A stretch of 64,000 nt of DNA. It comes from Bacteroidia bacterium. Lineage in GTDB: Bacteria; Bacteroidota; Bacteroidia; B-17B0; Aurantibacillaceae. The notes below the pieces were generated by a model that ran no database searches, had not been told where the DNA came from, and saw nothing but the letters and a program-made list of their open reading frames with translations. The translations under genes were made by a program, and so were the position numbers. The stretch spans positions 1 through 64,000 of the forward strand of contig JAEUTQ010000073.1 of the NCBI GenBank assembly GCA_016787445.1, written 5' to 3'. Of this stretch, positions 28,701-40,947 are shown piece after piece (position 1 is the stretch's first letter; each line of letters starts with the position of its first letter).

Positions 28701-29477
28701 ATCGCGCCTGCTGTGCCTAAAAATGAATTTGTGGTGGTAACCAAAGAATTAGAAAAATCAAACGGTCTCTTGTTTACGGTTCAGATTGGTGTTTACTCAC
28801 GCGAAATTACCCGCTCTCAATTATGGAAACTGGAGCCAATTTATACAGAGAAATTGCCTAGCGGTTTATACCGTTACACAGCCGGTATCTATAACGACGA
28901 TGTAAAAGTAGTGAGTGACAAACGCAAAGTGGTTGACTTAGGCATTAAAGACGCGTTCGTTTCGGCTTATTATAATGGTAAACGTGTTCCGTTCACAGAA
29001 GGACAAAAAATTAAATCGGAAAATCAGAACCTGAAAATGGAGCCTGAGAATCCGATTGTATTCCCAAGTGAAAATACAGGCGGATTACCTCCTAAAGCAA
29101 CTGCGGCCACTGAAGAACCTACACCAACGGTTGCGCCGTTTAAAAACAATGTTACCTCTGCTCCTGCTCCAACACCTGAAAATGGTGTGAAAGTTGGCGA
29201 TGAAGGTGTGAGCTTTAAAGTACAAATTGGTGCTTACCGTAATCAGGTGCCAAATGAAGTAGCTTCTAAATTCTTAAACATCAAAACATGGCCGGTAGAT
29301 GCTAAGTTTGTGAACGGATTATATATTTACACGGTTGGTAATTTTACCGATGCCAAGTTTGCAAAACAATTACGTGATGAAGTAATTGGTTTAGGAATCT
29401 CCGATGCATTTATCTCTGTTTACCAAAACGGTAAAAAACTCTACGGACAAGAAGCAAGTAATTACTTGAATAGATAA
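22743..29477 (+). CDS. Giant envelope protein: TPR, PD40 propeller, coiled coils, three SPOR domains
   Basis: 2244 residues from the ATG at 22743, where the signal peptide starts (VFFIGFILLNLLFSSNLNAQ). TPR-like helices cover ~25-150. PD40-type strands lie at ~210-340 (DKIYFSSFGEDGS, YPFLHPDGRTLYFSSKGFNSMGGYDVFKS) and a carboxypeptidase-regulatory-like domain at ~355-405. About 900 residues of Lys/Glu/Ala-rich coiled coil follow, then a KEPVTETKEPV tract (~1305-1433) and more coiled coil. Three C-terminal SPOR-type domains start with FRVQVGAF (~1878), FTVQIGVY (~2010) and FKVQIGAY (~2157). SPOR domains bind denuded peptidoglycan, so the protein probably spans periplasm or outer membrane and holds the cell wall. 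Its N-terminal half resembles the PorE-like lipoprotein at 62474. Role inferred. Confidence 0.85.
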   Translation: MFSKTRVFFIGFILLNLLFSSNLNAQQFKNEQELRKEADKLFDDDDFTKAYNLYAQLVALYPKDPELNYKLGVCMLYSEADKKKCFSYLKFAALHPSDAPKDAKFYYAKAFHINYLFDEAIYFYKEYKKVGSPSQQKKLQVDKEITSCVNGKRLLATLSELVVMNKKQLNETDYFRSYDLSTIGGKLLVKPDQFRTSYDKKKKEKSVVYIPKSGDKIYFSSFGEDGSTGRDIYYAVKVSPDKFSKPVKLPTINTEFDEDYPFLHPDGRTLYFSSKGFNSMGGYDVFKSTYDDATGTWSSPVNLEFPINSPDDDYLFVTDSSEKYAYFSTGRQSPPGKIDVLKVKTERVPMTVAFIKGTVLKEDARQSLLSKITVKDMETGKVVGVFQAKDNGDYSMEVPNGGKLLYTVETPGLPVQSDKVILPMATSFAPFKQSISYDNKVLKIINYFDSPPDDNSYLQYLELIEKKAKLEVNENDVKAATVSQPLATNEKDPKAVTTTNPTITPPVTDTKKPNEDVKVNAANTNSTTAVKPAYSNDQLVNIAKEDAQEAYTEANKINQDASDAKELAEQKKIEADKLKSQADEAATYAASVSDPVKKEEAVKEAEKIKSDAESAAKVAETLNELAKSLEKDALAKKNEADLNNQYAMQLENVAKNKNNKEAANKLNELQQQVSAIGEPKKESDAVYEKIKSNAEQKQTEIAKAEAKSNEIKNEIIDINKEINLNETEIKNTKDKSLKKSLTTQVNELKVDLEKKNTELAANEKKVEDLKTAAKTNETELYLANQIKTTDSKTAVATPILPSATTTTTSSTPVTAKVTPESVAAKYNEKLNPIAGNESKENLQSSNIILSDYNKELTSLIVADNNKLKSAKTEAEKTALKNEIAAYQKQKDANVKQIAANTNKINGQEPAVAITNTPTATSEKTTAIASNTTPASTANTVAFDGKDDLNKLTALKANVNTSNNPAFAYNDYKDANAINLKKEAETKLKSTETTKAELDNAISKAEESIKTNTATTAGGNKDALLAQGDAFASKAKETRATANTKSGAEKEKLLTEAKQLDADANKKYLEASDLTKKQNKFNFDLNNQNITELVNQATYLNKNTPENTANLNEANKLNTEANNYLKQATAMRDEANGLGSDAAKLGTISNAEEKEAEALAKQDAAIKILLKSNPGYELKKAEFNENPNAAALTQVNQKYNQLNKEKLDAYMTLSKANQNEYKAQNTKLSQNPAIKNNSNAEAVSLKKQAETANTQAVGLISKALTENNSEAKQNLLLEANKKEVEALALLTKANEQLQSGAIASNEKPIKETKEPVTETKEPVTTNTVAVTETKEPVTTNTVAVTETKTPVTETKEPVTTNTVAVTETKTPVKETKEPVTSGTVAVNETKTPVKETKEPVVKETKEPAVKETKEPVATVTPTKTSTPKTTTSVAANTPTINPEYKVLKDESVKSTIGFIDQNPVAHKNSEASSVKTNAITNLIALGNEYSTIEDEIKKTPGSQMGVEATKANIDKLNNEADNYDKQASVKRKEAAEKSGEEKDQLVKEITELENRSFISKTNSADLQKQLNEAQLKYNDAAIANYIEKAKTAEAPELAEIQDALTQINNSKKQASNLRDEANSITNSSAKLGAYSNAEEKEAEVLNKQAEIIRSLRKYDLTYSPAPLVINTNAEDNISPELKMKKDAVLQKQNTELENLNRANVMEYETLNEQLPVVLNEKQKQNKADAENLITSSKQLNDKANQTSDAKLKKDYLSQAAKKSQEAVVALNKAYEKDLIAKNTKPTKTTTKPVKEKPVTETSEPVATTKPVKEKPVKTVKEKPVKEPSEPVATTNTSKETTSAGTNQVNLTVKGLEIKTGNVYSASNPIPVDQKIPDGLVFRVQVGAFKSPIPNNTFKGLTPVNAQTTPNGFLRYTVGNFEKFEEATGVKNDLRKMGYNDAFVVVFYNGQRITVNEAINILQKEGKEVIATNNTSAGIPNNANIAKNIAPAVPKNEFVVVTKELEKSNGLLFTVQIGVYSREITRSQLWKLEPIYTEKLPSGLYRYTAGIYNDDVKVVSDKRKVVDLGIKDAFVSAYYNGKRVPFTEGQKIKSENQNLKMEPENPIVFPSENTGGLPPKATAATEEPTPTVAPFKNNVTSAPAPTPENGVKVGDEGVSFKVQIGAYRNQVPNEVASKFLNIKTWPVDAKFVNGLYIYTVGNFTDAKFAKQLRDEVIGLGISDAFISVYQNGKKLYGQEASNYLNR
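25800..28075 (+). repeat. Internal coding duplication in the coiled-coil region
   Basis: A module of roughly 280-330 codons occurs twice in the giant gene, about 25800-26640 and 27260-28075. Best anchor: RDEANGLGSDAAKLGTISNAEEKEAE (first) against RDEANSITNSSAKLGAYSNAEEKEAE (second), offset 1458 bp. The KEPV tract lies between the copies. Confidence 0.65.
26656..27000 (+). repeat. KEPV/TETK minisatellite-like coding tract
   Basis: Degenerate 8- to 12-residue units (KETKEPVT, TNTVAVTETK, TPVKETKEPV) run in tandem. They are Pro/Thr/Lys/Glu-rich and probably disordered. Length variation between strains is likely. Confidence 0.8.
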
Positions 29478-29606
29478 AAGTATTTAATTAATTTTATTCT
29501 AATAGGAGCGATAAACATTCCCCAATCTTGCCAAATTGGCGCGCTAAGGATGGTTTTATTAGTCCTATATGGAAGTTATAGGTAAAAAGCGCGGACGACT
29601 ACTCCA
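29478..29606. other. Left boundary of the cassette array
   Basis: Non-coding. CCTATA at 29564-29569 and TATAGG at 29577-29582 form a short inverted repeat. The right arm is part of GTTATAGGT at 29575-29583, the same R-box-like sequence that ends later repeats. A GACGAC follows shortly before the first cassette start. No complete attC-like fold is seen, so this could be the recombination-derived chromosomal junction. Confidence 0.45.
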
Positions 29607-29999
29607 ATGACAGACTCTAAGAAAAAAACAAACAACCTTGTACTGACAATTATTCTTTTAACTGTGATTTTTGTTGTTTTCGGTTATCTAAATAACACAA
29701 AACAAATGGACAGTATAAAAAAGAATAAATGTTACGCATTCGGACGAGTTACCAAATATGAACACAACTATAAAAGCACAAAAGGGTATGTTTACGAATT
29801 CTATATTAATGGCAAAACAAATACTGACATATATTTATTTGGTTTTAACGGACTACCAATAATTAATAAAGTATTTCCAGTAGTTTATGATTGCAACGAC
29901 CCAGACAACCATGCGCTACTTGTTTTACCAAAAAACTTTGCAGACAATGAAGAAAACTTCCCAGACAGCTTGACTTGGTTAAAACAATACGACAACTAA
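29607..29999 (+). CDS. Cassette gene 1: small membrane-anchored protein, unknown
   Basis: 130 residues. One N-terminal membrane helix (NLVLTIILLTVIFVVFGYL) is followed by a soluble part (KNKCYAFGRVTKYEHNYKSTKGYVYEFYINGKTNTD ... VFPVVYDCNDPDNHALLVLP). This layout resembles small proteins with a DUF3592-like beta domain, but I cannot name it firmly. Aspartate is encoded by GAC eight times and GAT once, unlike the neighbouring giant gene, which suggests acquisition. The stop is 17 bp before the next repeat. Confidence 0.65.
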   Translation: MTDSKKKTNNLVLTIILLTVIFVVFGYLNNTKQMDSIKKNKCYAFGRVTKYEHNYKSTKGYVYEFYINGKTNTDIYLFGFNGLPIINKVFPVVYDCNDPDNHALLVLPKNFADNEENFPDSLTWLKQYDN

Positions 30000-30017
30000 C
30001 CAATGGGGCGCTTTCAA

Positions 30018-30250
30018 CCTATAACAGCATGCAGCCGTCATCTGCGGACAGCGACGCACAAGCCTTCCCTACTCTCACGCACGGACACATTAATGTTTGC
30101 GGCAGTCGGCGCGCGGCTTCGGGCTGACAAATTTATTGCCGGCGCCTAGCAACTAATGTTGGGACGGAGGTAAAATTTTTATTTGTATCTTTAAGTGAAC
30201 GTTTCGGTAGCCGCAATCATTAACGTCGGCTGCACGCGGAACGTTATAAG
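30018..30250 (+). repeat. attC-like repeat S1 (family A)
   Basis: Outer arms CCTATAAC (30018-30025) and GTTATAAG (30243-30250), inner arms GCAGCCG (30031-30037) and CGGCTGC (30227-30233). The right arm has about four or five extra bases, making an asymmetric bulge as in attC sites. It shares 28 identical bases with S5 (30090-30117 against 33037-33064). A TATCTTTA box lies at 30186-30193, 80 bp before the next start codon. Confidence 0.65.
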
Positions 30251-30273
30251 CAACCAGTTGGACAAACATCGAA

Positions 30274-30750
30274 ATGAAAAAAATATTTTACCTGTTTAGC
30301 CTTTCTTTCAATTTGACAAACTGTGGGAATAATTCCCATGACAAAGTTGGAACTTGCTGCGACAAGACCTACTCAAATGTTGACAGCGCAATCAATTGTT
30401 TGAGCCGAACCGTGGACGGTAACGGAACAACCGCAGACGAAAGACTTATACTTATTGCCTTTGTTGACAAAGACCTTGGAGCAAATCAAAAGTTAGGATG
30501 GGACATAATCAAAGACCCAGACATAGTCAAAACGGCAAAGAGAAACTATGCCCTTGTAATTTTGGATGCCGACCAGTACAAAATATTAAATGACGACTGC
30601 TCTAACAATATTGCTGAAACCATAGAAAAAACTCATGACAAGACAATTTTTGTAATCGCAAATCAAGCATTATGTGTGTTTGGTGACTGGACACTTAATG
30701 ACGATAAAGAAAGTATTATCGACAGACTTCAGGTTGGCAATGGGCCCTAA
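30274..30750 (+). CDS. Cassette gene 2: lipoprotein with possible thioredoxin-like fold
   Basis: 158 residues, N-terminal MKKIFYLFSLSFNLTNCGNN with a plausible lipobox Cys. The segment LILIAFVDKDLGANQKLGWDIIKDPDIVKTAKRNYALVILDADQYKI, followed by KTIFVIANQALCVFGDW, has the strand-helix-strand rhythm of thioredoxin-fold proteins but no CxxC. GAC strongly dominates GAT for Asp (about 17 to 2). Preceded by GGACAAACATCG, a leader shared with other cassettes. Function unknown. Confidence 0.6.
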   Translation: MKKIFYLFSLSFNLTNCGNNSHDKVGTCCDKTYSNVDSAINCLSRTVDGNGTTADERLILIAFVDKDLGANQKLGWDIIKDPDIVKTAKRNYALVILDADQYKILNDDCSNNIAETIEKTHDKTIFVIANQALCVFGDWTLNDDKESIIDRLQVGNGP

Positions 30751-30768
30751 ACTGTGTGAGGCTGGCAG

Positions 30769-30903
30769 CTTATAACACGGGTTTTGCGTCAGGCGGGCTG
30801 ACGTGCAAACATGGAGCTTAGTGCTTCAAATGAACATTAGTAATAAATTGAAACTTTGTGCTTCGAAACCCGCCCGAACGCAAATCCCGAAACCGTTATA
30901 GGC
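30769..30903 (+). repeat. attC-like repeat S2 (family X)
   Basis: CTTATAAC (30769-30776) pairs with GTTATAGG (30895-30902). CGGG/CCCG, TTTGCGT (30783-30789) with ACGCAAA (30878-30884) and GGCGGG (30792-30797) with CCCGCC (30869-30874) give a long imperfect stem. Loop of about 70 nt. AAACTTTG at 30851-30858 is a weak -7-like box. Confidence 0.7.
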
Positions 30904-30921
30904 ATTTTAATAGACGACACC

Positions 30922-31596
30922 ATGCAGACAAGAAAACATACAGCTTGGAAGAAAAACCGAAAGTTTGGTGACGTTTGGGGTGGTCGGACTTTTCCAAAAC
31001 TTGCCGACAAAATTTTTAATCGAAAACATAATTTAACTGCTCCAAAAAGTGGCGAAACAACGCCAATTTATATAGTTGACAATCCCTCTCGAGACTTCTA
31101 TTTTCCCGTAACTGTTGACGAAATAAAATCGACACTTGAGAAGTTACCGAAAGACCACACCGACCATTTAACTCACATTTGGTTGCAGAAAATTAAAAAG
31201 ACTGATTACGTAAATGGAGACACTTTTCAAGGTTCTTTTATTTGTGGTAGTAAAGTGTATTTAATCGTTTTACACCCATTCCCAACTGACAACAAAATGA
31301 GGCTTGGAAAAAACAAACCATTAAGAAAGACTTTAAACTACTATAAAAACTATACTACAGACTTAAAAGAAGATAAAGACGGTTGGTATTTACAATGGAC
31401 AGATGAATTGATTAAAAAGTATTTTTTGGAAAGTTTATTGCTTCACGAAATTGGACACTCCATTGACAGTTTTTATAAACGATATTGGAGTAAAGCAACA
31501 AAAGCGAAAAGTGAAAATTTTGCTGACAATTATGTAGCCGTTTGGGCAGACAAAGTACGAGAGACTTATGAACCGAAAGAGAAAAACGCCCTATAA
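30922..31596 (+). CDS. Cassette gene 3: HEIGH zinc-metallopeptidase-like protein
   Basis: 224 residues from the ATG at 30922, preceded by GACGACACC. The frame extends upstream into the repeat, but that part is not coding-like. LLLHEIGHSIDSFYKRYW (~178) is a gluzincin/zincin HExxH motif, and SENFADNYVAVWADKVR about 25 residues later could give a third ligand (Glu or Asp). The N-terminal 170 residues show no known family. No signal peptide, so it may act inside the cell, for example as a regulator-cleaving protease. The stop codon TAA lies within the R-box of the next repeat. Asp is mostly GAC. Confidence 0.6.
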   Translation: MQTRKHTAWKKNRKFGDVWGGRTFPKLADKIFNRKHNLTAPKSGETTPIYIVDNPSRDFYFPVTVDEIKSTLEKLPKDHTDHLTHIWLQKIKKTDYVNGDTFQGSFICGSKVYLIVLHPFPTDNKMRLGKNKPLRKTLNYYKNYTTDLKEDKDGWYLQWTDELIKKYFLESLLLHEIGHSIDSFYKRYWSKATKAKSENFADNYVAVWADKVRETYEPKEKNAL

Positions 31597-31781
31597 CACG
31601 GGGTGTGGCGACAATTTTTCCTTTGGCCCGCACGGGCATGGCGGGAAAAAATAGCCTGCCGCCGGCAGAATTTAAAACGCCAGCCTTAAAGAAGAGCTTC
31701 AAAATAAATTCATTATCTTTATTAAACAGTTTCGTGGAAGCGCAAAGTAAAAACTGCGCCAAGCCGCAAAACGTTAGGGGC
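31588..31781 (+). repeat. attC-like repeat S3 (family B)
   Basis: GCCCTATAACA (31588-31598) opens and GTTAGGGGC (31773-31781) closes the element. GGTGTGGCG pairs imperfectly with CGCCAAGCC. Two blocks (31582-31624, 43 bp, and 31675-31776, 102 bp) are identical to S7. TATCTTTA at 31714-31721, 79 bp before the next start. Confidence 0.7.
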
Positions 31782-31799
31782 AACCGCTTGACAAACTAA

Positions 31800-32267
31800 A
31801 TGAAAATAAAATTTATCATACCTTTTTTTCTTTTGCTATCTTTCTTTTGCAATTCCCAGGACAAGTTAACTGGTAAGGATTATATATTTGGTGTAATTAT
31901 TACATGTGTAACAGATTCGACTTCCTTTTTAAACTCGGACACAATTGTTCTTGATTTGGCGGAACGGGACTATAATAATGACTGTCCGAATAAACCTAAA
32001 TCCTCAAGGTGTTGCATGCCATGGCCTTCGGAAATTTCATTAGACTTATCAAAAGGAAATATTTTTTTAGCAACTAACAAAGAAATTGTGCTTGACGCTA
32101 ATGGTGAAGTTAAATCGTTATCTCACAAGCCAAGGCAGGGAAAATTTAAATACAACAAAAAGGCAGACACTATAAAAATCAGTTTTAAACAATACCATTG
32201 GACAAGGACATTTAAAGTTTTATATCGTAAACAAGACAATTCGTTAACTTTGACAAAAACTTTATAA
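31800..32267 (+). CDS. Cassette gene 4: exported protein of unknown function
   Basis: 155 residues with signal peptide (IKFIIPFFLLLSFFCNSQ). Mature part has a Cys pair (SSRCCMP) and ends in strands (GKFKYNKKADTIKISFKQYHWTRTFKVLYRK). Family not recognised. Start fixed by the leader CTTGACAAACTAA immediately before the ATG, which is shared with cassette gene 10. Asp codons 8 GAC to 3 GAT. Confidence 0.6.
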   Translation: MKIKFIIPFFLLLSFFCNSQDKLTGKDYIFGVIITCVTDSTSFLNSDTIVLDLAERDYNNDCPNKPKSSRCCMPWPSEISLDLSKGNIFLATNKEIVLDANGEVKSLSHKPRQGKFKYNKKADTIKISFKQYHWTRTFKVLYRKQDNSLTLTKTL

Positions 32268-32271
32268 GCAG

Positions 32272-32380
32272 CCAACTACAACACTACATTTACGATATAC
32301 TGGCGGACGCGGGTTATCGCTTCAGCGCAATGCCTTCTACGCAGACAGAAAAATTTGTTGCGGCTTTCGCTAAAAAACAT
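32272..32380 (+). repeat. Truncated attC-like repeat S4 (family C)
   Basis: Left part matches S8 (ATAACAC-like start, then CATTTA...GGCxGAC) and 26 bases at 32354-32379 are identical to 35829-35854. The promoter-like box and right R box found in S8 are missing here. The remainder up to 32459 is unique sequence without clear signals. Confidence 0.6.
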
Positions 32381-32459
32381 TTCTGGAGTACGCAATAACT
32401 AATCCTGAAGACGAAACTATAGACAATATTTCTGAACAATTCCCGTTACTTTATTCGAA

Positions 32460-32951
32460 TTGGCAGACTCATTTTTTCATATAAGAAATTATATTTTGAT
32501 CCTAGCCTTTGGTTTGGTGACAGTAAGTTGTAAAAAGTACGAAGAGAATCCATGGTATAAACCCGGAATAAAAAAAGGATTGAACAGCAAATATTTCATC
32601 ACTTCATATACTGTAAATGATGTTGATTGTTTGACTTATGTTAACAGTAAGCTAAATACACAGCTTCAAAACATTGTCTGGACCATAGAACCCGCCGATG
32701 ATTTTGGTGAAAACACCTCCTTTAAATCTGAATTTTTCTGGGGATTATGTAAGACATCAAAAAAAGAAACGGAGTTCTCCATTTGCGGTGAATTGATCTC
32801 TATGACAGGCTCAAACATTACACCTTACAATATATTCATCACTTCTTGTAGTGATTGGAGAATTACAAAAAAATACATAAAAAACAAAAAGCGCATTTTT
32901 AAAATTAGCAGGCAATTTGAAAGCAAGACTTATGAAATACAATTTAACTAA
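32460..32951 (+). CDS. Lipoprotein of the CKKYxEN type, host-like gene inside the array
   Basis: 163 residues if translation starts at TTG (32460); no ATG, GTG or stronger start is in frame upstream before a stop at 32433. The lipobox reads LVTVSC followed by KKYEENPWYKPG. The protein resembles the lipoprotein at 43436 (CKKYPEN ... YxxxYTxN), so both belong to one Bacteroidota lipoprotein family, possibly lipocalin-like. Asp codons are mainly GAT, unlike the surrounding cassettes. I infer a native gene, or the 3' part of one, trapped in the array with a damaged 5' end. Confidence 0.6.
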   Translation: MADSFFHIRNYILILAFGLVTVSCKKYEENPWYKPGIKKGLNSKYFITSYTVNDVDCLTYVNSKLNTQLQNIVWTIEPADDFGENTSFKSEFFWGLCKTSKKETEFSICGELISMTGSNITPYNIFITSCSDWRITKKYIKNKKRIFKISRQFESKTYEIQFN

Positions 32952-32974
32952 GCGACACCACACTCTCAATTAAA

Positions 32975-33156
32975 GCCTACAAACGTTACCTGCGAACAGC
33001 AACGCACAACCTTCCCTACTCTTACACTCATACACTTTAATGTTTGCGGCAGTCGGCGCGCGGCAATTAATATTGAATTTGAGGTATTTTTTTTATCTTT
33101 ATTATACGTTTCGGGAGCCGCAATCATTAACGTTGGCTGCACGCGGAACGTTAGGC
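32975..33156 (+). repeat. attC-like repeat S5 (family A)
   Basis: Diverged left arm GCCTACAAAC, right arm GTTAGGC (33150-33156), a canonical attC R' box. Interior homologous to S1, including CTTCCCTACTC, 28 identical bases at 33037-33064, and GCCGCAATCATTAACGT. The promoter at 33073-33101 is inside. Confidence 0.65.
33073..33101 (+). promoter_or_regulatory. Putative promoter inside repeat S5
   Basis: TTG at 33073-33075, 18 bp spacer, then TATCTTTA at 33094-33101 (one mismatch to TAnnTTTG). The next start codon is 75 bp downstream. Confidence 0.45.
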
Positions 33157-33175
33157 GTAACCGTAGACATAAATA

Positions 33176-33784
33176 ATGAAAGAATATTTTTCTGTAAATC
33201 GACATAAATTTTTACGCCAGTTCATTGTGACATCAGTAATATTCACAATTGTTTGGACATTCATTATTTTGACGGACAAGAAAGGTATGAATATTGAAAC
33301 GAAAATATTAGGTTATTTTCTTTTTGCAATACCCCTCGCCTTTTTTGGTCAATTCGTTATGAATATTCGAGACGCACTAGAATTTAAACGAATTAATAAA
33401 ATATTTGATCACCCTCAACTCAATAAATTTACAAGTACTGGCTTCATTAAGACACTCTCTGAGAAAGACAGCAAATGGCTTTCGTCAAAACCTATCTTAA
33501 AAGGAACAATAGACAATTACCCTGTTAAATTTGAGGTTGAAAAAGGTATTTTAAGGGTAATCGCTGAGACAAATTTAGACTTAGTTGAAAAGACACATAT
33601 ACAAGAACTAAAATCAATATTTGGCAAAGACAATATCGAATACGACATTGGTATTGCTCTTCTATTCAGACCTGCGAGACGAAAAGACTTGTCGTTTCAA
33701 GACATTAATTCTGAACTTATAAAATTCATTTCATTCCTCAAGACAAATAAACTTGACGCATGGGTTGAAAACGGCAACGCCTAA
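33176..33784 (+). CDS. Cassette gene 5: two-helix membrane protein, unknown
   Basis: 202 residues. Two membrane helices near the N-terminus (FIVTSVIFTIVWTFIIL and ILGYFLFAIPLAFFGQFV) precede a soluble domain with WLSSKPILKGTIDNYPVKFEVEKGILRVIAET. No family recognised. No signal peptide. The stop codon forms part of the GCCTAAC box of the next repeat. The leader GTAGACATAAATA follows GTTAGGC directly. Confidence 0.6.
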   Translation: MKEYFSVNRHKFLRQFIVTSVIFTIVWTFIILTDKKGMNIETKILGYFLFAIPLAFFGQFVMNIRDALEFKRINKIFDHPQLNKFTSTGFIKTLSEKDSKWLSSKPILKGTIDNYPVKFEVEKGILRVIAETNLDLVEKTHIQELKSIFGKDNIEYDIGIALLFRPARRKDLSFQDINSELIKFISFLKTNKLDAWVENGNA

Positions 33785-33954
33785 CAGCAAGCAATTGCAC
33801 AATGCGGGCGGAAGTATAAGGCATTTGCAAAAGTCAGCGGCTGACAATTATTTTCATTTTGCAAATGTCTAAAAAGCATGTAGCTTTGTTAAGCAGGTTT
33901 CGGCAAGAAGCGGTTTCAAAGCCGCACTGTGCAAACTTGCAAACCGTTATAGGG
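33779..33954 (+). repeat. attC-like repeat S6 (family X')
   Basis: GCCTAAC (33779-33785, canonical R'') and GTTATAGGG (33946-33954). Stem: GCAAG/CTTGC, TTGCACA (33795-33801)/TGTGCAA (33928-33934), TGCGG/CCGCA, with small asymmetric bulges. Best folded element of the series. Contains the promoter at 33857-33888. Confidence 0.75.
33857..33888 (+). promoter_or_regulatory. Putative promoter inside repeat S6
   Basis: TTTTG ending at 33861, 19-bp spacer, then TAGCTTTG at 33881-33888, an exact TAnnTTTG match. The next start is 85 bp downstream. Sequence after the box (TTAAGCAGGTTTCG) aligns with that after TATCTTTA in S3 and S7. Confidence 0.55.
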
Positions 33955-33973
33955 TATTTTAAAAGACGATATT

Positions 33974-34687
33974 GTGCGGACATTAAAACAAGAATTCAGG
34001 CAATTTTTAAAAGATAATTTTAAAGGACTTCGACCTAGAAAACCTTTGTTTTACAGCTGGGAGTTCGGACTGCGGTTTGATCTACAGGTTGGAAATATTT
34101 CTAATTCAACAAGACTGGTTGTTGACGCAGATGGAAATTCTATAACCAAGAATGTTGACGTCGACACAGATGAGTATTTTATTCAAGTTGTGCATCGCGC
34201 TACGAATATTTTTCAATCAGCCTGTGACAGTTCAGATAGAATGTTTTTAGTTCTTATGGATTATAAACATAGGAGAAGAAAAATAAGACAATCAAATTTT
34301 GTGTTCAGACAAATTGCTGAACTAAAGCAAGACGAAATCGCTTACACAAAAGAATACAGGCTTTACGAACCAAGTGACAGATTAGATATTAGAAATATTG
34401 CATTGGTAAAACTTAATGCGGGCCGAATAAATCACAAAAACATTTTGACAGCCGTAAGTCACACAGACTTTCCGCCAAGACAACCAAGGCTTGACAGTAA
34501 AGGTTTTTTTTCAAGTAAAGAAATCTATTTTATAAACATTGACAAAAAATTAATTTTGCACATGTATGATGATCGCGGCTTTGACATCATTGCTACTGAC
34601 AAAGAAACCTTAAGGCCTATTTACCAAAAACACAATGACTGGATTCTTGACTACGACAGAAAAGAGATTGACAAACAGTTTAAATAA
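33974..34687 (+). CDS. Cassette gene 6: DUF3885-like protein
   Basis: 237 residues from a GTG at 33974, preceded by TAAAAGACGAT as before cassette gene 3. Recognisable features: LFYSWEFGLRFDLQ near residue 30, and the C-terminal IYFINIDKKLILHMYDDRGFDII followed by LRPIYQKHNDWILDYDRKEID. This C-terminal run is the DUF3885 signature as I know it. Cytosolic, function unknown; related proteins occur in polymorphic toxin/immunity loci of several phyla, so an immunity role is conceivable. Confidence 0.7.
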   Translation: MRTLKQEFRQFLKDNFKGLRPRKPLFYSWEFGLRFDLQVGNISNSTRLVVDADGNSITKNVDVDTDEYFIQVVHRATNIFQSACDSSDRMFLVLMDYKHRRRKIRQSNFVFRQIAELKQDEIAYTKEYRLYEPSDRLDIRNIALVKLNAGRINHKNILTAVSHTDFPPRQPRLDSKGFFSSKEIYFINIDKKLILHMYDDRGFDIIATDKETLRPIYQKHNDWILDYDRKEIDKQFK

Positions 34688-34692
34688 AAAAC

Positions 34693-34882
34693 GCCCTATA
34701 ACACGGGGTGTGGCGACAATTTTTCCTTTACGCCCGCACCGGCATGGCGCGGACAAATTGTCCCTTCGGGCAGTTTAAACGCCAGCCTTAAAGAAGAGCT
34801 TCAAAATAAATTCATTATCTTTATTAAACAGTTTCGTGGAAGCGCAAAGTAAAAACTGCGCCAAGCCGCAAAACGTTAAAGT
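34693..34882 (+). repeat. attC-like repeat S7 (family B)
   Basis: GCCCTATAACA (34693-34703) to GTTAAAGT (34875-34882, degenerate right box). Blocks 34687-34729 and 34777-34878 are identical to S3. TATCTTTA at 34816-34823, 86 bp before the next start. Confidence 0.7.
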
Positions 34883-34908
34883 TAATTGGGCGGCCAGACA
34901 GCCGAAAA

Positions 34909-35730
34909 ATGACAATAGACAAAAGTCTCATGACAAATTACTACGTATTAAACGTTGACGATGCTTTCGCAGGCGAGGCTCCAAAGGACTATGACTGGGA
35001 TAGCAAACTTTCTTCTCGTTCACTACGCGAATACATTAAGAACAAACGGGAGTTCCCTTCGTTTACGCCCAATCTGGAAATAAAAATTTATCGGGATCGA
35101 GAGTTTTCACAAGTAAGAGACTTTCTTCATTGTATGTTAGACGGGCTTTGTTTCTCTGAAAAAGTCAAAAACATTTTTTCGGAATTCAATTTACCAAAAC
35201 ATAAATTTTATCCTATAAAAGTAGTTCTTCCTAAAAAAAGACTTAAACTGCTCAAATCTTCTCCTACAGACACCCTGACCTATTATAACCTTTGGTATAG
35301 TTTTTACGACTTAACAAATCAATATAAGCTTATAGACTTCTCTAAAACAAAGATCATCGCTGAAACTCCCGCAATGACACGTGAAGTTGTAAAGGTCACG
35401 TCTTCCGAAGAATGGGAACAACTTCCAGAAAAGAACAAAATGCTTAGAGAAGAATTAAAAAAATACACAAATGAATTTGACATGCCCTTAAAAGACTGTT
35501 TCGAAAAAGTGGACAGCCTAAGACGACAAATAGTTGGCATGACATCAACGGACGAAATTGTTTTTTCAAAAGACTTTGACCATAGTATTGATCTGTTCGA
35601 AATTCCCGCATTTTCTTCCCGGACATACATTTCTGACAGACTTGGTGAAAGACTAAAAAAAGAAAACGTTACTGGTATCGACATTTATCGACCTCAGTCA
35701 ATCGGTGGACCAAAATTGACTTGGCAGTGA
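34909..35730 (+). CDS. Cassette gene 7: Imm11/Imm43-like candidate immunity protein
   Basis: 273 residues; a second ATG at 34930 (MTNYYVLNVDD) is an equally plausible start. The end, LFEIPAFSSRTYISDRLGERLKKENVTGIDIY, follows the pattern of imm11-family (DUF1629) and Imm43 proteins, whose C-terminus reads F-x-I-x-x-x-x-x-x-xVSxRLKxAxxxxxxTGxxF. These neutralise toxins from contact-dependent or polymorphic toxin systems. No toxin gene is present here, so it would be an orphan immunity gene. Cytosolic, GAC-rich Asp codons. Confidence 0.5.
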   Translation: MTIDKSLMTNYYVLNVDDAFAGEAPKDYDWDSKLSSRSLREYIKNKREFPSFTPNLEIKIYRDREFSQVRDFLHCMLDGLCFSEKVKNIFSEFNLPKHKFYPIKVVLPKKRLKLLKSSPTDTLTYYNLWYSFYDLTNQYKLIDFSKTKIIAETPAMTREVVKVTSSEEWEQLPEKNKMLREELKKYTNEFDMPLKDCFEKVDSLRRQIVGMTSTDEIVFSKDFDHSIDLFEIPAFSSRTYISDRLGERLKKENVTGIDIYRPQSIGGPKLTWQ

Positions 35731-35753
35731 ATTAAACTGTGCGCGCCCTACTA

Positions 35754-35938
35754 CCTATAACACCACATTTAGCTATGCGGGCTGACTTGGGTCATCGCTC
35801 AAGCCACTTGCCCCTTCGGGCCAGAAATTTTGTTGCGGCTTTCGCTAAAAAACAATTATCTTTAAATATAGTTTTTCGGGTATAGACGGTTGAGGGCAAT
35901 AAAGCCGCAAAGCGTAAATCTGGGGAACGTTAGCGGGC
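35754..35938 (+). repeat. attC-like repeat S8 (family C)
   Basis: CCTATAAC (35754-35761) and GTTAGCGGGC (35929-35938). ATTTA/TAAAT, GCT/AGC and TGCGG/CCGCA (35767-35780 with 35905-35919) form the stem. Shares 26 identical bases with S4. TATCTTTA at 35857-35864, 95 bp before the next start. Confidence 0.65.
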
Positions 35939-35958
35939 TAGCTTTAAGACGACAAACA

Positions 35959-36321
35959 ATGAAATTATCTTTATTTAAAAAATTAGCCAAAAAATATTCC
36001 AATTTACCTTTATCAAAGGACATTCAAGACATTGACGACTTTAATAAGTATCAAGACGCATTACTCAATGATAAAAAATGTACTGACTGGGTTTTAAAGC
36101 AACAAATTAAATCTGCCGGTTTAAATCCCAACAAATACTGTTGCCTTGATATGGGGTATCATTTAATCGAAGCCAAAAAAACTAAACGTAAGACAAAAAT
36201 AAATTACGACACAATAATAATAACGACTAAAAGCAAAGAGTTTGGTATTCCAATTCATGACGGTGGAACTTCTTTTATTAAAATTAATTACTGTCCTTGG
36301 TGCGGACACAAACTAAAGTAA
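35959..36321 (+). CDS. Cassette gene 8: small protein with CPWCG zinc-ribbon end (DUF6980-like)
   Basis: 120 residues from the ATG at 35959; GACGACAAACA precedes it. The region upstream in the same frame is repeat sequence. The C-terminus IPIHDGGTSFIKINYCPWCGHKL plus NKYCCLDMGYHL earlier gives two Cys pairs that could bind zinc. The ending is as I recall for DUF6980 proteins. Cytosolic; role unknown. Confidence 0.6.
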   Translation: MKLSLFKKLAKKYSNLPLSKDIQDIDDFNKYQDALLNDKKCTDWVLKQQIKSAGLNPNKYCCLDMGYHLIEAKKTKRKTKINYDTIIITTKSKEFGIPIHDGGTSFIKINYCPWCGHKLK

Positions 36322-36447
36322 GGTACAACCCTCTAATACAAAGTAAGCGATCATTTTTTGCGGGTTAACGCTCAAATGTTTAAGTTGGCATATAAAAAAT
36401 TTCAAGTGGACGAAAAAGAAAAGTGGTGGACAAACTAAATCGTAAAA
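36322..36447. other. Degenerate cassette junction
   Basis: CCCTCTAATACAAAG may be a decayed left box, but no right box GTTRRRY or hairpin is visible. It ends with GGACAAACTAAATCG before the next ATG. Confidence 0.35.
36427..36441 (+). repeat. 15-bp direct repeat, left copy
   Basis: TGGACAAACTAAATC occurs here, 7 bp before the start of cassette gene 9, and again at 37039-37053 across its stop codon. The copies are 612 bp apart. Confidence 0.7.
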
Positions 36448-37050
36448 ATGACATTCTTAAATAAATATATTTCGAAAATTATTCTGTTTTCCGGACTTGT
36501 CTACTCCTGCTCGACCTCTGACGATAATAAAAAATCAGACTCGGAAATGAAAATAGACAACAATATATACCCCATCGAATATGTTGGCGAGAAAATACTC
36601 GAATACAACAAGTCAATGGTCCCTCCAATCGGCGGTACAGCGAAGCACGCAGACACTTTTAATCTTTACAAACTTGTAAATAAAAGTTCCGACACTGTTT
36701 GGGTAAATACAATTAAACCTCTACTTGACACATCCATGTATTTTGTCAAAGACACTTCAATAAAGGAACTAACTAAAAATCGCATTAGCCTTCGTGATTT
36801 TGATAAAGGGTGGCTTATTTTATCAGACGGAAATTGTTGGAGTAATTGTGATTATCACGTATGTGTTTTACCTACACAAAGTTTATTTTTCACAATGGGA
36901 GTAAAAGGCAAACTCAGCTATGACAGTACACAGTTTGATATCTACATTAAAATAAAAAAAGGAAAAAAGGCTGTTGACTCTACGTTAACCAAAAGACTTG
37001 TGTTTATTAAAAACAACTTCGTCGACGACACAAGTAAATGGACAAACTAA
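36448..37050 (+). CDS. Cassette gene 9: lipoprotein of unknown function
   Basis: 200 residues, lipobox LVYSC followed by STSDDNKKSD. Mature part: IYPIEYVGEKILEYNKSM, an inner GWLILSDGNCWSNCDYHVCVLP with three Cys, and a Lys-rich end. Family not recognised. Asp codons about 13 GAC to 5 GAT. Flanked by a 15-bp direct repeat, the right copy of which contains the TAA stop. Last gene of the array. Confidence 0.6.
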   Translation: MTFLNKYISKIILFSGLVYSCSTSDDNKKSDSEMKIDNNIYPIEYVGEKILEYNKSMVPPIGGTAKHADTFNLYKLVNKSSDTVWVNTIKPLLDTSMYFVKDTSIKELTKNRISLRDFDKGWLILSDGNCWSNCDYHVCVLPTQSLFFTMGVKGKLSYDSTQFDIYIKIKKGKKAVDSTLTKRLVFIKNNFVDDTSKWTN

Positions 37051-37053
37051 ATC
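37039..37053 (+). repeat. 15-bp direct repeat, right copy
   Basis: Exact copy of 36427-36441, spanning the stop codon of cassette gene 9. AGCTAAC at 37061-37067 just after it looks like a final left R box and may mark the right end of the array. Confidence 0.65.
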
Positions 37054-37105
37054 AACCATCAGCTAACAGCCAAACACCCAATCAACAACACAATAAAAAC
37101 ATACC

Positions 37106-37366
37106 ATGAGCTTCTTCGATAAAATATTTGACCTTTTAGCCTGGATTAAAATCTTTTTATCTCCTTTTATTATTGGCTTAGTAATTGGGGCTTACTTATG
37201 GTTATCGAATGAAAACAATTATCTAATGCAACTACTTTCTTTAGGCGTCATAGCTATTGGCATTGCCGGCGGTATTGCCTTGGCAGAAAGAGCGAGAAAA
37301 AAACAAGGCACTCAGGAATTCATGGCCACCATTTACCGCACACCTGAATTGGATAAGGAAGATTAG
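37106..37366 (+). CDS. Small two-helix membrane protein
   Basis: 86 residues: two hydrophobic helices (IKIFLSPFIIGLVIGAYLWL and LMQLLSLGVIAIGIAGGIAL) and a short charged tail. GAT-type Asp codons and no attC-like repeat after it place it outside the array. Convergent with the propeller-phosphatase gene, overlapping by 4 bp. Function unknown. Confidence 0.6.
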   Translation: MSFFDKIFDLLAWIKIFLSPFIIGLVIGAYLWLSNENNYLMQLLSLGVIAIGIAGGIALAERARKKQGTQEFMATIYRTPELDKED

Positions 37367-40300
37367 ATTTTAATTCCAACAATTGTAATGTCATCCACCT
37401 GCTCCATTTGTCCGGCCCATTCACTCAAACTTTTTTCAAGTACTGTCTTTTGTTCTGCAAGTGATAAAGACGAATTGTTTACTATTAATTGACGCAAATT
37501 TTTTGTCATAAATTTCTTGCCCTTCGCGCCGCCAAACTGATCCGGAAATCCATCCGATAATGTATAAATCAAATCACCTTTCTGTATTTCCATTTCATGT
37601 AAAGTAAACTCTCTGTCTTGAAATTCATGTTTACCCACAGGCATTTTATCCGGTTTAATTTCTATTAATTGTTTATTTCTTACCACCCACACCGGATTAT
37701 GCGCAGCTGCAACCGATAATTTCATTTGTTTAAAGTCAAACACACACAGGCTACAATCCATGCCATCCTTTCCTCCTTCCGAACTACCATCTTTTTTTAA
37801 TCGGTCGATAATGATTGATCTTGCCAGGTTTAAAATTTTATGCGCGGAGGTTTCTGTTTCGATTGCCTTTTCCAAACTGGTAATGTTCAACAAACTCATA
37901 ATTGCGCCCGGTACACCATGTCCGGTTGAATCGGCCGTTACAAACACAAAATTTCCATTTGGCAGAGTGGCCGACCAATAAAAATCACCGCTAACAATAT
38001 CCTTTGGTTTAAAAAATATAAAGTACTCTTTTAAATAAGTTTTTAAATGCTCTTCAGTTGCTAAAAAGCTCTTTTGTATTCTGGAGGCGTAATTAATACT
38101 GTCGGTGATTTCTTTATGCTTTTCTTCAATCAATGATTTTTGCTGCTTAATTTCAAGGGTAGCTTCATCAATCTTCATTTCCAATTGCTTTTGTCTGTAC
38201 TTTAATTGTCGGTTTCTATAAGTTGAAAACCCATAGATAGAACCAACAAAAACAATGGCGTATAAAAAATAAGACCATGTTGTATTGTACCATGGCGGCA
38301 ATATCTCAAATTGAAATTCAACAGGATGACTCCACACTCCATTCGCACTTCGTGATTTAAGCATGAACGTATGAGTGCCCGCAGAAATATTTCTATAATC
38401 TACTTCCATCTTCGTCACCGGTAAGCTCCACCCCATATCCTCACCGGTGAGCTTATAACTGTAAACTACTTTTTCCGACTCGGCGCCAATTTGTATACCG
38501 GTAAACTTAAAGGTTAAGTGATTGTAAGCATAAGGAACTTTCAATCCGATTGGTAAATGATAAATAGTTGAAGTTGTGGAATCGTAACTAAAACTTGTGC
38601 TTAATTTTTCCAATGATTTTTTATCCAGCCAGTCGAGATTTTGTTCATTCACCATCACATCGGTGATGTAGGTTGGTAAAGCATCCTTGTTGATTTTAAG
38701 ATATGGCTCCAATTTAGTGAGTACAGAACCTATTCCGCTCCAAAGTTCACCTGAATGCGATGTGGACATGGAATTAGGATTAAAATCCATGTAACGTAAT
38801 CCATCTTTTTTATCGTAATTCTTCTCAAGTTTATAATAATTCCCTTCCGGAATCATTTTACATAATCCTTTACCTGTGCCAAGCCAGAGACATCCAAGAG
38901 TATCTTCAAAAATACTGATGACTTGTTCATTTGGCAATCCACACTTTTCAGTGTAATAATAAATACGATTTAATTTAAAATCTATCACATTTAATCCGCC
39001 ACCATTGGTACCAATAAGCAATTGACCTTTGGAATTTAAACATTGGGTATTAACGGTAATGTTATTTAATCCGTTATCAGTTGTAAATTCACTTAAGGTA
39101 CCTTTGTTTTTATCGTAAATGGTGAGACCTTTATCGGAGGTAGCGATTGAAAAAACACCCTTTTCAATTTCATTAACGTTTAAAATTAAATCTGAATTCA
39201 ATCCGTTTAACGTGTTTAGTTTATGAATGGAATCATGATTTTGATTTACAAAAACAAGACCATTCCCTTCGTTACCCGCCAAATAATTGCCATCGCTACA
39301 TTGTATAACAGACCACACAAAACCACTTCCAAAACCTTGTTTAATACCAAACTGTGTTATTTTATTTTTATCTCTTTCTACTACAAATAATCCTTTACCG
39401 GAGCTGCCCACTAACCATTTATTATCGTTAACAAGGTGCAATCCATAAGCTACATCAACCGGAAATCCGGATTCAGTATTATAAATCAAACTTTTTCCGT
39501 TTTTGAAATCAAGATAATTTATCCCACCGCCATCAGTTGCTAAAACTAAATTATCAGTATCCGTAAATTTTAAATTCATGATGGTATTATAGGAAATACC
39601 GCGCTCTGAATCGTAATGTTTGATATTCTGATTCACCAAGTCCAAAATATTTAATCCACCGCCGTAAGTGCCAATCAAATATTTTCCATCCATGGTTTGA
39701 TTGATGGAATACACGGTTGGATTACTTAATCCTTCTTCTGTTCCGTATGTCTCAATCGTGGATGCCTTAAGATCTATTATATTTATACCACCCAAATTTG
39801 TCCCAATGAGTAATTTACTATCGTTCTGAACATACATAGAATAAATTGTAGCATCTGATAAATTTTGTTCGACTGAAATGTTTTTTATTGAATTGGTCTT
39901 AGGGTTATAAACTTCTAGTCCGTTACCGTCTGTTCCCATATAAACTTCCTTGTTTATTATTCCCAGACACATGATTTTGTTGTTACTTAATCCGTTTAAT
40001 GTGGAATGAATTTTAGTGGTTGAAGTATTAAAATCCAATATGTTTAAACCACCTCCGTATGTACCGATACAAAACACACCCGGTTCTAAGGGTGCAATTC
40101 CTAACACAGTATTTTCACCTAATCCATTATCAATGGTGATTTGCTGTATGCTGTGATTTTTAAAATCGATAATATTCAAACCATCTCCCGAAGTACCAAT
40201 AAAGAGTTTACCATCTTCTAATTCATAGGTACTGATGATGAAATCGCCGGTTAATCCATTGTTTTTATTATAAATTTCCAATTGATTGGTAACGGTATTT

Positions 40301-40947
40301 AGAATTTGAAGTCCACCACCGTCAGTTCCAATTAAAAGTCTGCCATCTTTTAATAAGCGTAAACAAAAAATATAATTGTGACGCAAATTTTGACCGGTGT
40401 TATAGACCATCCATTTATGTCCATCGAATCTACACAAACCTCCATCGGTGCCAACCCAGAGATGTCCCATGCGATCAAAAACCATTGATTGAACAATGGT
40501 ACTTACCAAACCATTATCTTGATTATAAAATTTTAAATTACTGAAAGCCTTCTCGGATGTGTTGGCTGTTTGACATATTATTTCCTGAGGGGTTCCAAGA
40601 GTTGCCATCCCGGGTTTAATGTTGCTGATTAATTTCGGAGAGATTTTTTTCAGGAGTGGCTCACCCAATTTTCTTTCCTGAGATGGCCCCAGCACATTTA
40701 CATTACCTTTTAATTTTGAAACCGTGGGTGATTTTAATGGTAAAACAATGGGAGCTTCTAATTCTTTACCACCTAATTTTATGGATTTTAATACAACCTT
40801 TTTGCTTTTTGCTTTAACATTATCAAGGCTATCGGGTAAAATTAAAACTTCGTTATGGCTTCGTTGGGAATCATGGTCGGGTTTAGGGTTAGAACAACCA
40901 AACAAAACCAAGAGGCAAATATAAAATAGTGCCCATTTAAACTGCAT
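37363..40947 (-). CDS. Two-component-type propeller sensor with Y_Y_Y domain and SpoIIE phosphatase
   Basis: 1194 residues. Lipobox LVLFGC (Cys18), then a linker, then about thirteen propeller motifs of the form LIGTxGGGLNILD from ~150 to ~740, enough for two seven-bladed propellers. A Y_Y_Y-type beta domain (~800-880, VYSYKLTGEDMGWSLP, GTHTFMLKSRSANGVWS) precedes a membrane helix (YFLYAIVFVGSIYGF). A coiled coil, EITDSINYASRIQKSFL and a SpoIIE PP2C domain follow (VSGDFYW, TADSTGHGVPGAIM, GKDGMDCSLC, QVDDITIVGIKI). This is the layout of Bacteroidota hybrid sensors with a phosphatase in place of the kinase. Start overlaps the upstream NlpC/P60 stop (TAATG). Confidence 0.92.
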   Translation of the reverse strand: MQFKWALFYICLLVLFGCSNPKPDHDSQRSHNEVLILPDSLDNVKAKSKKVVLKSIKLGGKELEAPIVLPLKSPTVSKLKGNVNVLGPSQERKLGEPLLKKISPKLISNIKPGMATLGTPQEIICQTANTSEKAFSNLKFYNQDNGLVSTIVQSMVFDRMGHLWVGTDGGLCRFDGHKWMVYNTGQNLRHNYIFCLRLLKDGRLLIGTDGGGLQILNTVTNQLEIYNKNNGLTGDFIISTYELEDGKLFIGTSGDGLNIIDFKNHSIQQITIDNGLGENTVLGIAPLEPGVFCIGTYGGGLNILDFNTSTTKIHSTLNGLSNNKIMCLGIINKEVYMGTDGNGLEVYNPKTNSIKNISVEQNLSDATIYSMYVQNDSKLLIGTNLGGINIIDLKASTIETYGTEEGLSNPTVYSINQTMDGKYLIGTYGGGLNILDLVNQNIKHYDSERGISYNTIMNLKFTDTDNLVLATDGGGINYLDFKNGKSLIYNTESGFPVDVAYGLHLVNDNKWLVGSSGKGLFVVERDKNKITQFGIKQGFGSGFVWSVIQCSDGNYLAGNEGNGLVFVNQNHDSIHKLNTLNGLNSDLILNVNEIEKGVFSIATSDKGLTIYDKNKGTLSEFTTDNGLNNITVNTQCLNSKGQLLIGTNGGGLNVIDFKLNRIYYYTEKCGLPNEQVISIFEDTLGCLWLGTGKGLCKMIPEGNYYKLEKNYDKKDGLRYMDFNPNSMSTSHSGELWSGIGSVLTKLEPYLKINKDALPTYITDVMVNEQNLDWLDKKSLEKLSTSFSYDSTTSTIYHLPIGLKVPYAYNHLTFKFTGIQIGAESEKVVYSYKLTGEDMGWSLPVTKMEVDYRNISAGTHTFMLKSRSANGVWSHPVEFQFEILPPWYNTTWSYFLYAIVFVGSIYGFSTYRNRQLKYRQKQLEMKIDEATLEIKQQKSLIEEKHKEITDSINYASRIQKSFLATEEHLKTYLKEYFIFFKPKDIVSGDFYWSATLPNGNFVFVTADSTGHGVPGAIMSLLNITSLEKAIETETSAHKILNLARSIIIDRLKKDGSSEGGKDGMDCSLCVFDFKQMKLSVAAAHNPVWVVRNKQLIEIKPDKMPVGKHEFQDREFTLHEMEIQKGDLIYTLSDGFPDQFGGAKGKKFMTKNLRQLIVNNSSLSLAEQKTVLEKSLSEWAGQMEQVDDITIVGIKI

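Follow-up and report, generated by a model that had tools for sequence, protein, structure and literature searches.

Within the 64,000 nucleotides that we analysed (the window: positions 1 to 64,000, forward strand, of contig JAEUTQ010000073.1, here C50, in the Bacteroidia bacterium assembly GCA_016787445.1), positions 29575 to 37067 hold an array of short plus-strand genes with long imperfect inverted repeats between them. We think it highly probable that this array serves as cassette platform for a Bacteroidota integron that uses a recombinase other than IntI. A candidate for that recombinase, a 377-residue tyrosine recombinase, is encoded on another contig of the same genome (C74) and, judged by comparison, very probably moves the cassettes of the window. 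The case, read from sequence throughout, is built on the anatomy of array, attI and attC; the bottom-strand preference and covariation of the attC sites; the matching of boxes within single cassettes; the linkage of integrase, attI and attC across the phylum; turnover at the locus; and a cassette common to two genera. An earlier model-made reading of the same letters (the first-pass annotation) had proposed mobile gene cassettes with attC-type sites in a window that holds no integrase gene, and our analysis supports that proposal; its boxes and repeats also lie where it had placed them.

The array is bounded by a gene of 2263 residues (stop at 29477) and by an open reading frame (ORF) of 86 residues at 37106, which had been counted among the array's genes and belongs to the flank, past the last box. 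Between these limits we count seven attC sites of good form and one that is truncated, and a half box closes the array (Table 1). Nine inverted repeats had been claimed between the genes. Seven are full sites; of the others, attC 4 (~32278-32382) has lost its right half, its left half aligning with attC 8 (repeat D10), and the stretch at ~36330-36440 has no attC-like fold (-5 kcal/mol). Units 31774-33150 and 35930-37065 therefore hold two ORFs each. The seven full sites were recovered by a scan, blind to coordinates, that scores the bottom-strand duplex formed by AAC plus 27 nt and 32 nt plus GTT; at the same threshold it gave three other plus-strand and five minus-strand sites in the 64-kb window and zero to two per shuffled window strand. 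A stricter first scan, which required paired GTT/AAC ends, returned zero sites, and the criterion was then relaxed. An Rfam search of the window gave no match. Two of the sites, attC 3 and attC 7, are almost identical (repeats D1 and D5), and attC 1 is 95% identical to one attC of an integrase-linked array in the sister species G007.

The bottom-strand fold that the first-pass annotation proposed to look for is present. Of the two strands, the bottom one folds more stably at all ten sites of the window and C74, among them attC 1 (-19.8, against -16.2 for the top strand) and attC 2 (-24.3 against -22.2), and at 37 of 45 independent sites; a G.U pair fixed in the attC structure corresponds on the top strand to a mismatch, C.A. 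A covariance model with a hand-set structure, R1, was made from 24 attC rows, 23 taken from relatives and one from the window, and covariation in its alignment is 0.591, compared with 0.172 +- 0.018 in shuffles. In the window's genome R1 finds 20 sites at E values up to 0.5, on contigs C13, C14, C17, C46, C50, C59, C68 and C74. Scores for the window include 34.8 bits for attC 6 (-20.8 in the duplex scan), 34 bits for attC 8, and E 0.18 for attC 3 in a search of its own genome; the 111 bits of attC 2 arise by construction, because that site is among the model's 24 rows. What marks an attC in integrons, namely paired boxes, a folded bottom strand, and a conserved structure on variable sequence, is found in these sites.

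That the units are cassettes can be read from their boxes. In a set of 75 cassettes, the start box and end box of one cassette agree at 5.69 of 6 positions; the figure is 2.58 within a site and 2.32 in random pairs (maximum of 500: 2.77). Cassettes bounded at GTT, with start box equal to end box, are a property of integrons, and the agreement is as expected for a circular cassette opened at GTT; plain dispersed repeats would not show it. Inverted repeats that are imperfect, 80-240 bp long and in several cases present as single copies elsewhere in the genome might otherwise be taken for miniature inverted-repeat transposable elements (MITEs), or something like them, lying between genes by chance. 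We rejected this explanation, which we find barely credible, on site sense and box matching: all downstream sites share the sense of the genes and of the integrase, and the box agreement spans the gene, not the repeat, contradicting a MITE. The repeats stand at gene ends, as the first-pass annotation had them, unlike MITE-like elements unrelated to such ends. The first-pass annotation further suggested that CCTATAAC/GTTATAGG is a box variant, which standard attC models may miss.

The first-pass annotation had also expected an integrase with the integron-specific patch. No IntI above the TIGR02249 cut-off occurs in the window's genome, which is estimated to be 100% complete, and its best sub-threshold match is the C74 recombinase, at 210 bits (family range 190-217; cut-off 265) with profile positions 179-239 unmatched. 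Three canonical IntI from the same search match TIGR02249 over its full length at 485-489 bits. By model coverage and alignment, the additional domain of IntI (the patch, or I2 helix) is absent from the C74 integrase and its Bacteroidota relatives. The RKHRHY set of tyrosine recombinases is intact, with R234, K259, H324, R327, H350 and Y359 conserved in A2. By NCBIfam the protein is XerA-like: it scores 224 bits against a cut-off of 220 on NF040815 (the XerA-like NCBIfam model 'site-specific tyrosine recombinase/integron integrase'), on which relatives are borderline at 196-235 bits, and the solved structures nearest to a model of an Algoriphagus relative are IntI4 and XerA. In a tree of 40 recombinases IntI is monophyletic (support 100), with the integrases of the Bacteroidota arrays outside it (72). 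The N-terminal 77 residues of the Algoriphagus relative form a confidently predicted domain (predicted local distance difference test score 93), whose best structural matches, all weak, are YciH, the HARP domain of SMARCAL1, and fork-bound XPB. Pfam HARP (PF07443) recognizes this region in the relative L100 at 29 bits (cut-off 25; E 7.5e-7) and stays under its cut-off for C74 (E 0.1).

On C74 an attI-like hairpin directly follows the integrase; three attC sites and a pair of cassette ORFs whose boxes match come next, and there the contig ends. A site resembling this attI also opens the array of the window. The first-pass annotation had read the box at 29575 as half of an attC; it is instead the core of the window's best attI match, at 19.4 bits by a position weight matrix made from attI sites 3' of relatives' integrases (next-best in the window 9.4; best among 20 shuffled windows 17.9), and the site aligns over ~80 nt with the attI sites of relatives. 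In most core members of the family the sequence TATAARCnAGTTA is conserved ~70-119 nt downstream of the stop codon of the integrase gene, and in 13 of 20 further genomes that place scores at least 12.9 bits (shuffles: 95% at 7.5, maximum 13.4); the match is missing in several members of a distant integrase subfamily. The adjacency of attI and integrase that characterizes integrons is thus found here. Two other attI-like sites of the window's genome have no integrase, one on C68 (L179:4692, 20.7 bits), right after a dihydrolipoyl dehydrogenase-like gene, and one on C59 (L178:6245, 15.6 bits), and attC follows both. No integrase remnants were seen at the solo attI sites. We suspect that the solo sites on C68, on C59 and in the window are landing platforms served in trans; alternatively, a neighbouring integrase may have been lost from each.

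The attC sites keep company with this integrase family well outside the window's genome. We scanned 80 named loci that surround integrase relatives, some of which loci also gave rows to R1. The model places 66 sites downstream (3') of the integrase and in its sense, with no antisense site on that side, and seven upstream, three of these belonging to a canonical IntI; of the 47 loci with 2 kb or more of downstream sequence, 18 have a site. A further 20 genomes, which gave no rows to R1, have 75 sites downstream in the same sense, none downstream in antisense and one upstream, counts of which only the zero antisense is unbiased, because downstream sequence was sampled longer than upstream.

The array falls within the definition of a cluster of attC sites lacking integron-integrases (CALIN), which asks for two or more attC no farther than 4 kb from each other and no integrase nearby, since it has seven in 8 kb and none of the genome's integrase matches is on the window's contig. 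The first-pass term 'CALIN-like' was right for an integrase-free array and incomplete as a description, because the array retains an attI-like site, unexpected for a CALIN, and a candidate integrase is encoded elsewhere in the genome, on C74, beside a second array of the same type. An ordinary CALIN would consist of classical IntI cassettes, placed by an IntI that lies elsewhere or has since been lost. The general attC plan is indeed shared, R1 scoring 22-28 bits on the attC of a Calditrichia IntI locus (L139), and the blaVEB-1 cassette, which carries an attC of the present kind, sits among class 1 integron cassettes (aadB, arr-2), so IntI1 is probably able to use such a site. We nevertheless consider this origin improbable: a genome that appears complete has no IntI above the cut-off, arrays across the phylum adjoin patch-less integrases and not IntI, and the window's attI-like site resembles the attI of the patch-less family.

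Cassette turnover is visible at the locus itself. With the C-terminus of the 2263-residue protein as synteny marker (a 1194-residue flank protein was discarded, its family being too large), homology with G007, at 95% nucleotide identity in the flank, ends at 29489 and restarts at 37057; between these points G007 has different genes, one partial attC and a degraded attI. A 1442-bp cassette, with ends 1-4 nt off the boxes, is common to Flavobacterium enshiense and the distant genome G017 at 98.1% identity. The content between boxes varies among relatives, as the first-pass annotation had anticipated, and comparison indicates that cassettes move between genomes as units, as those of integrons do. 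The array in the window could still be a dead relic, the C74 machinery being real, the array no longer moved, and its attI left over from an integron copy minus the integrase. We regard this as a possible yet rather unlikely state of affairs, for the truncated attC 4, the unfoldable stretch at 36330-36440 and the degraded attI that G007 has at the corresponding position, which favor it, have to be set beside content wholly replaced after divergence from a sister whose flanks are 95% identical, a complete attI core, five cassettes with a perfect box match, and a search for an integrase remnant beside the window's attI in which none was seen.

Table 1. The attI-like site and the cassette units of the window array
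Feature	Position	Strand	Content	Duplex-scan site	Matching boxes (start/end)
attI-like site opening the array	29497..29584 (about)	+	core GTTATAGG at 29575; integrase gene absent beside it		
cassette A	29576..30243	+	ORF 29607-29999 (130 aa); attC 1 at 30016-30252 (AAC 30023, GTT 30243-30245)	30023-30245	GTTATAGG/CCTATAAC
cassette B	30244..30895	+	ORF 30274-30750 (158 aa); attC 2 at 30767-30904	30774-30897	GTTATAAGC/GCTTATAAC
cassette C	30896..31773	+	ORF 30922-31596 (224 aa, stop codon inside left box); attC 3 at 31588-31782	31595-31775	GTTATAGGC/GCCCTATAAC
unit D/E	31774..33150	+	ORFs 31800-32267, 32460-32951; truncated attC 4 (~32278-32382) between ORFs; attC 5 at 32975-33159	32982-33152 (attC 5)	
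cassette F	33151..33946	+	ORF 33176-33784 (202 aa, stop codon inside left box); attC 6 at 33776-33955	33783-33948	GTTAGGCG/CGCCTAAC
cassette G	33947..34875	+	ORF 33974-34687 (237 aa, DUF3885); attC 7 at 34693-34884	34700-34877	GTTATAGGG/CCCTATAAC
cassette H	34876..35929	+	ORF 34909-35730 (273 aa, Imm11-like); attC 8 at 35752-35938	35759-35931	
unit I/J	35930..37067	+	ORFs 35959-36321 (DUF6980), 36448-37050; ends with half box GCTAAC at 37062		GTTAGC at 35929 matched by GCTAAC at 37062

Several observations weigh against a working integron with a patch-less recombinase. The C74 contig stops within its array, and a complete integron is not visible there. Support inside the tree is modest (41-94), and the N-terminal domain matches known structures weakly (E 0.05-0.2; 0.064 for the 4o66-type HARP fold). 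Some family members with at least 2 kb downstream have no R1 site; they are mostly distant homologues from other phyla, with a few from Bacteroidota. Decay in two of the ten window units, the truncated site and the non-folding stretch, suggests that the array is perhaps partly dead. Recombination itself we infer from comparison.

If the integron reading is right, a XerA-like C74 recombinase, devoid of I2 and equipped with a HARP-like N-terminal domain, would recombine folded bottom-strand attC hairpins with attI-like sites, exchanging cassettes at the GTT of the boxes. One attI would lie 3' of the integrase's own gene and solo copies at other places of the chromosome, including the one that opens the window array, on which the C74 integrase would act in trans. 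The HARP-like domain may take the hairpin-recognition role that I2 has in IntI. In a larger context, we incline, by a small measure, to the view that this is a second class of integron, in which a XerA-like enzyme without I2 recombines hairpins by means of a HARP-like domain, one integrase serves several solo attI platforms, and cassettes such as blaVEB and tet(X3) have leaked into the plasmids and class 1 integrons of pathogens. Because the patch of IntI is absent, the system is by strict definition not an integron, though integron-like in its working; its sequence features suggest a variant form of integron.

With sedentary chromosomal and class 1 integrons the system has in common a tyrosine recombinase, an adjoining attI, tandem one-gene cassettes in one sense, CALIN-like satellites, and attC sites with R and L boxes, a spacer, bottom-strand folding and a GTT crossover. 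It differs from them in an integrase that lacks the I2 additional domain, falls outside IntI and has a HARP-like domain at its N-terminus; in the position of attI and array, which in the core subfamily are 3' of the integrase and in its sense; in the attC spacer beside the R box, which is strongly asymmetric (1 vs 5 nt); and in the solo attI sites of the window's genome. Catalytic domain and tree position are those of XerA, XerC and XerD, whereas Xer enzymes use dif-like double-stranded sites, are unlinked to attC arrays, and do not have the extra N-terminal domain. The I2 helix has been held to be necessary for cassette capture, the source of the single-strand activity of IntI, and unique to IntI (PMC7790495). 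That necessity becomes directly testable with a family of integrases that lacks the patch and is tied to hairpin cassettes of the same type.

The integron census would change as well. The IntegronFinder 2.0 survey lists one complete integron in Bacteroidetes proper, in Salinibacter ruber (PMC9024848); against that one, R1 sites are present in 54 of 60 relatives, including 46 of the 49 of high quality, and the integrase, at E up to 1e-80, in 67 of 198 genomes sampled across the phylum. We found no earlier description of the system in the literature searched, preprints and most subscription journals being outside its scope.

Remains of the system next to resistance genes offer a concrete route by which genes of Bacteroidota could have reached pathogens. 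On an IncC plasmid of Klebsiella michiganensis (L142:5142-6763, NZ_CP084417.1), a truncated integrase relative (50% identity) lies directly 5' of blaVEB-3, with the attI-like box GTTAGCGG just ahead of the gene (attI score 13.4 bits). The attC of blaVEB-1 (L145:3443-3582, NZ_MK388209.1), beside the aadB and arr-2 cassettes, scores 49.7 bits with R1 (E 1.6e-9). These matches suggest that the VEB cassette derives from a Bacteroidota integron. Upstream of tet(X3) on plasmid pHH1107 (L143:5019-7100, FJ012881.1), the gene annotated 'TnpF' is a truncated integrase relative (51% identity) that groups with Aquiflexum in the tree (support 100), and the box GTTATGTG, with a low attI score, stands just ahead of tet(X3). 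R1 finds no complete attC beside this gene; what looks like a left half-site follows it (L143 ~7060), as if tet(X3) were a first cassette. An origin of tet(X) in Flavobacteriaceae has been proposed earlier (PMC7494873, PMC8693923), and the word 'integron' is absent from the main text of the second report. The Bacteroidota system seems to be a source of some clinical resistance cassettes. On a Flagellimonas plasmid (L144:3868-4715, NZ_CP092416.1), two R1 sites (33.6 and 94.2 bits) flank a gene of the dihydrofolate reductase family; erm(F) and a recombinase lacking the patch are nearby.

A Chryseobacterium plasmid also carries the integrase with attC sites downstream. In a second integrase subfamily (G017, G032, G008) the array lies 5' of the integrase, the arrangement of most classical integrons. 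One genome of this subfamily, G032, has at least 57 kb of one-sense attC on a single contig (C2, 2-59 kb; L181, L186, L187), the size of a superintegron, with the integrase at its 5' side. A phage collection yielded distant integrase relatives only, none with 80% protein coverage. A family member on a contig of a metagenome-assembled genome labelled Spirochaetota (L077, JARKUF010000008.1) has one 3' site by the duplex scan, unconfirmed by R1; this may mean that the system is not confined to Bacteroidota, or that the contig is misbinned.

Pfam says little about most of the cassette proteins. The product of cassette G matches DUF3885 at E 2.8e-48, and that of cassette H matches Imm11, an immunity-protein family, at E 1e-6. 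Adjoining the array, positions 37363-40947 encode a SpoIIE-like, PP2C-type protein of a family with 32 matches in the genome.

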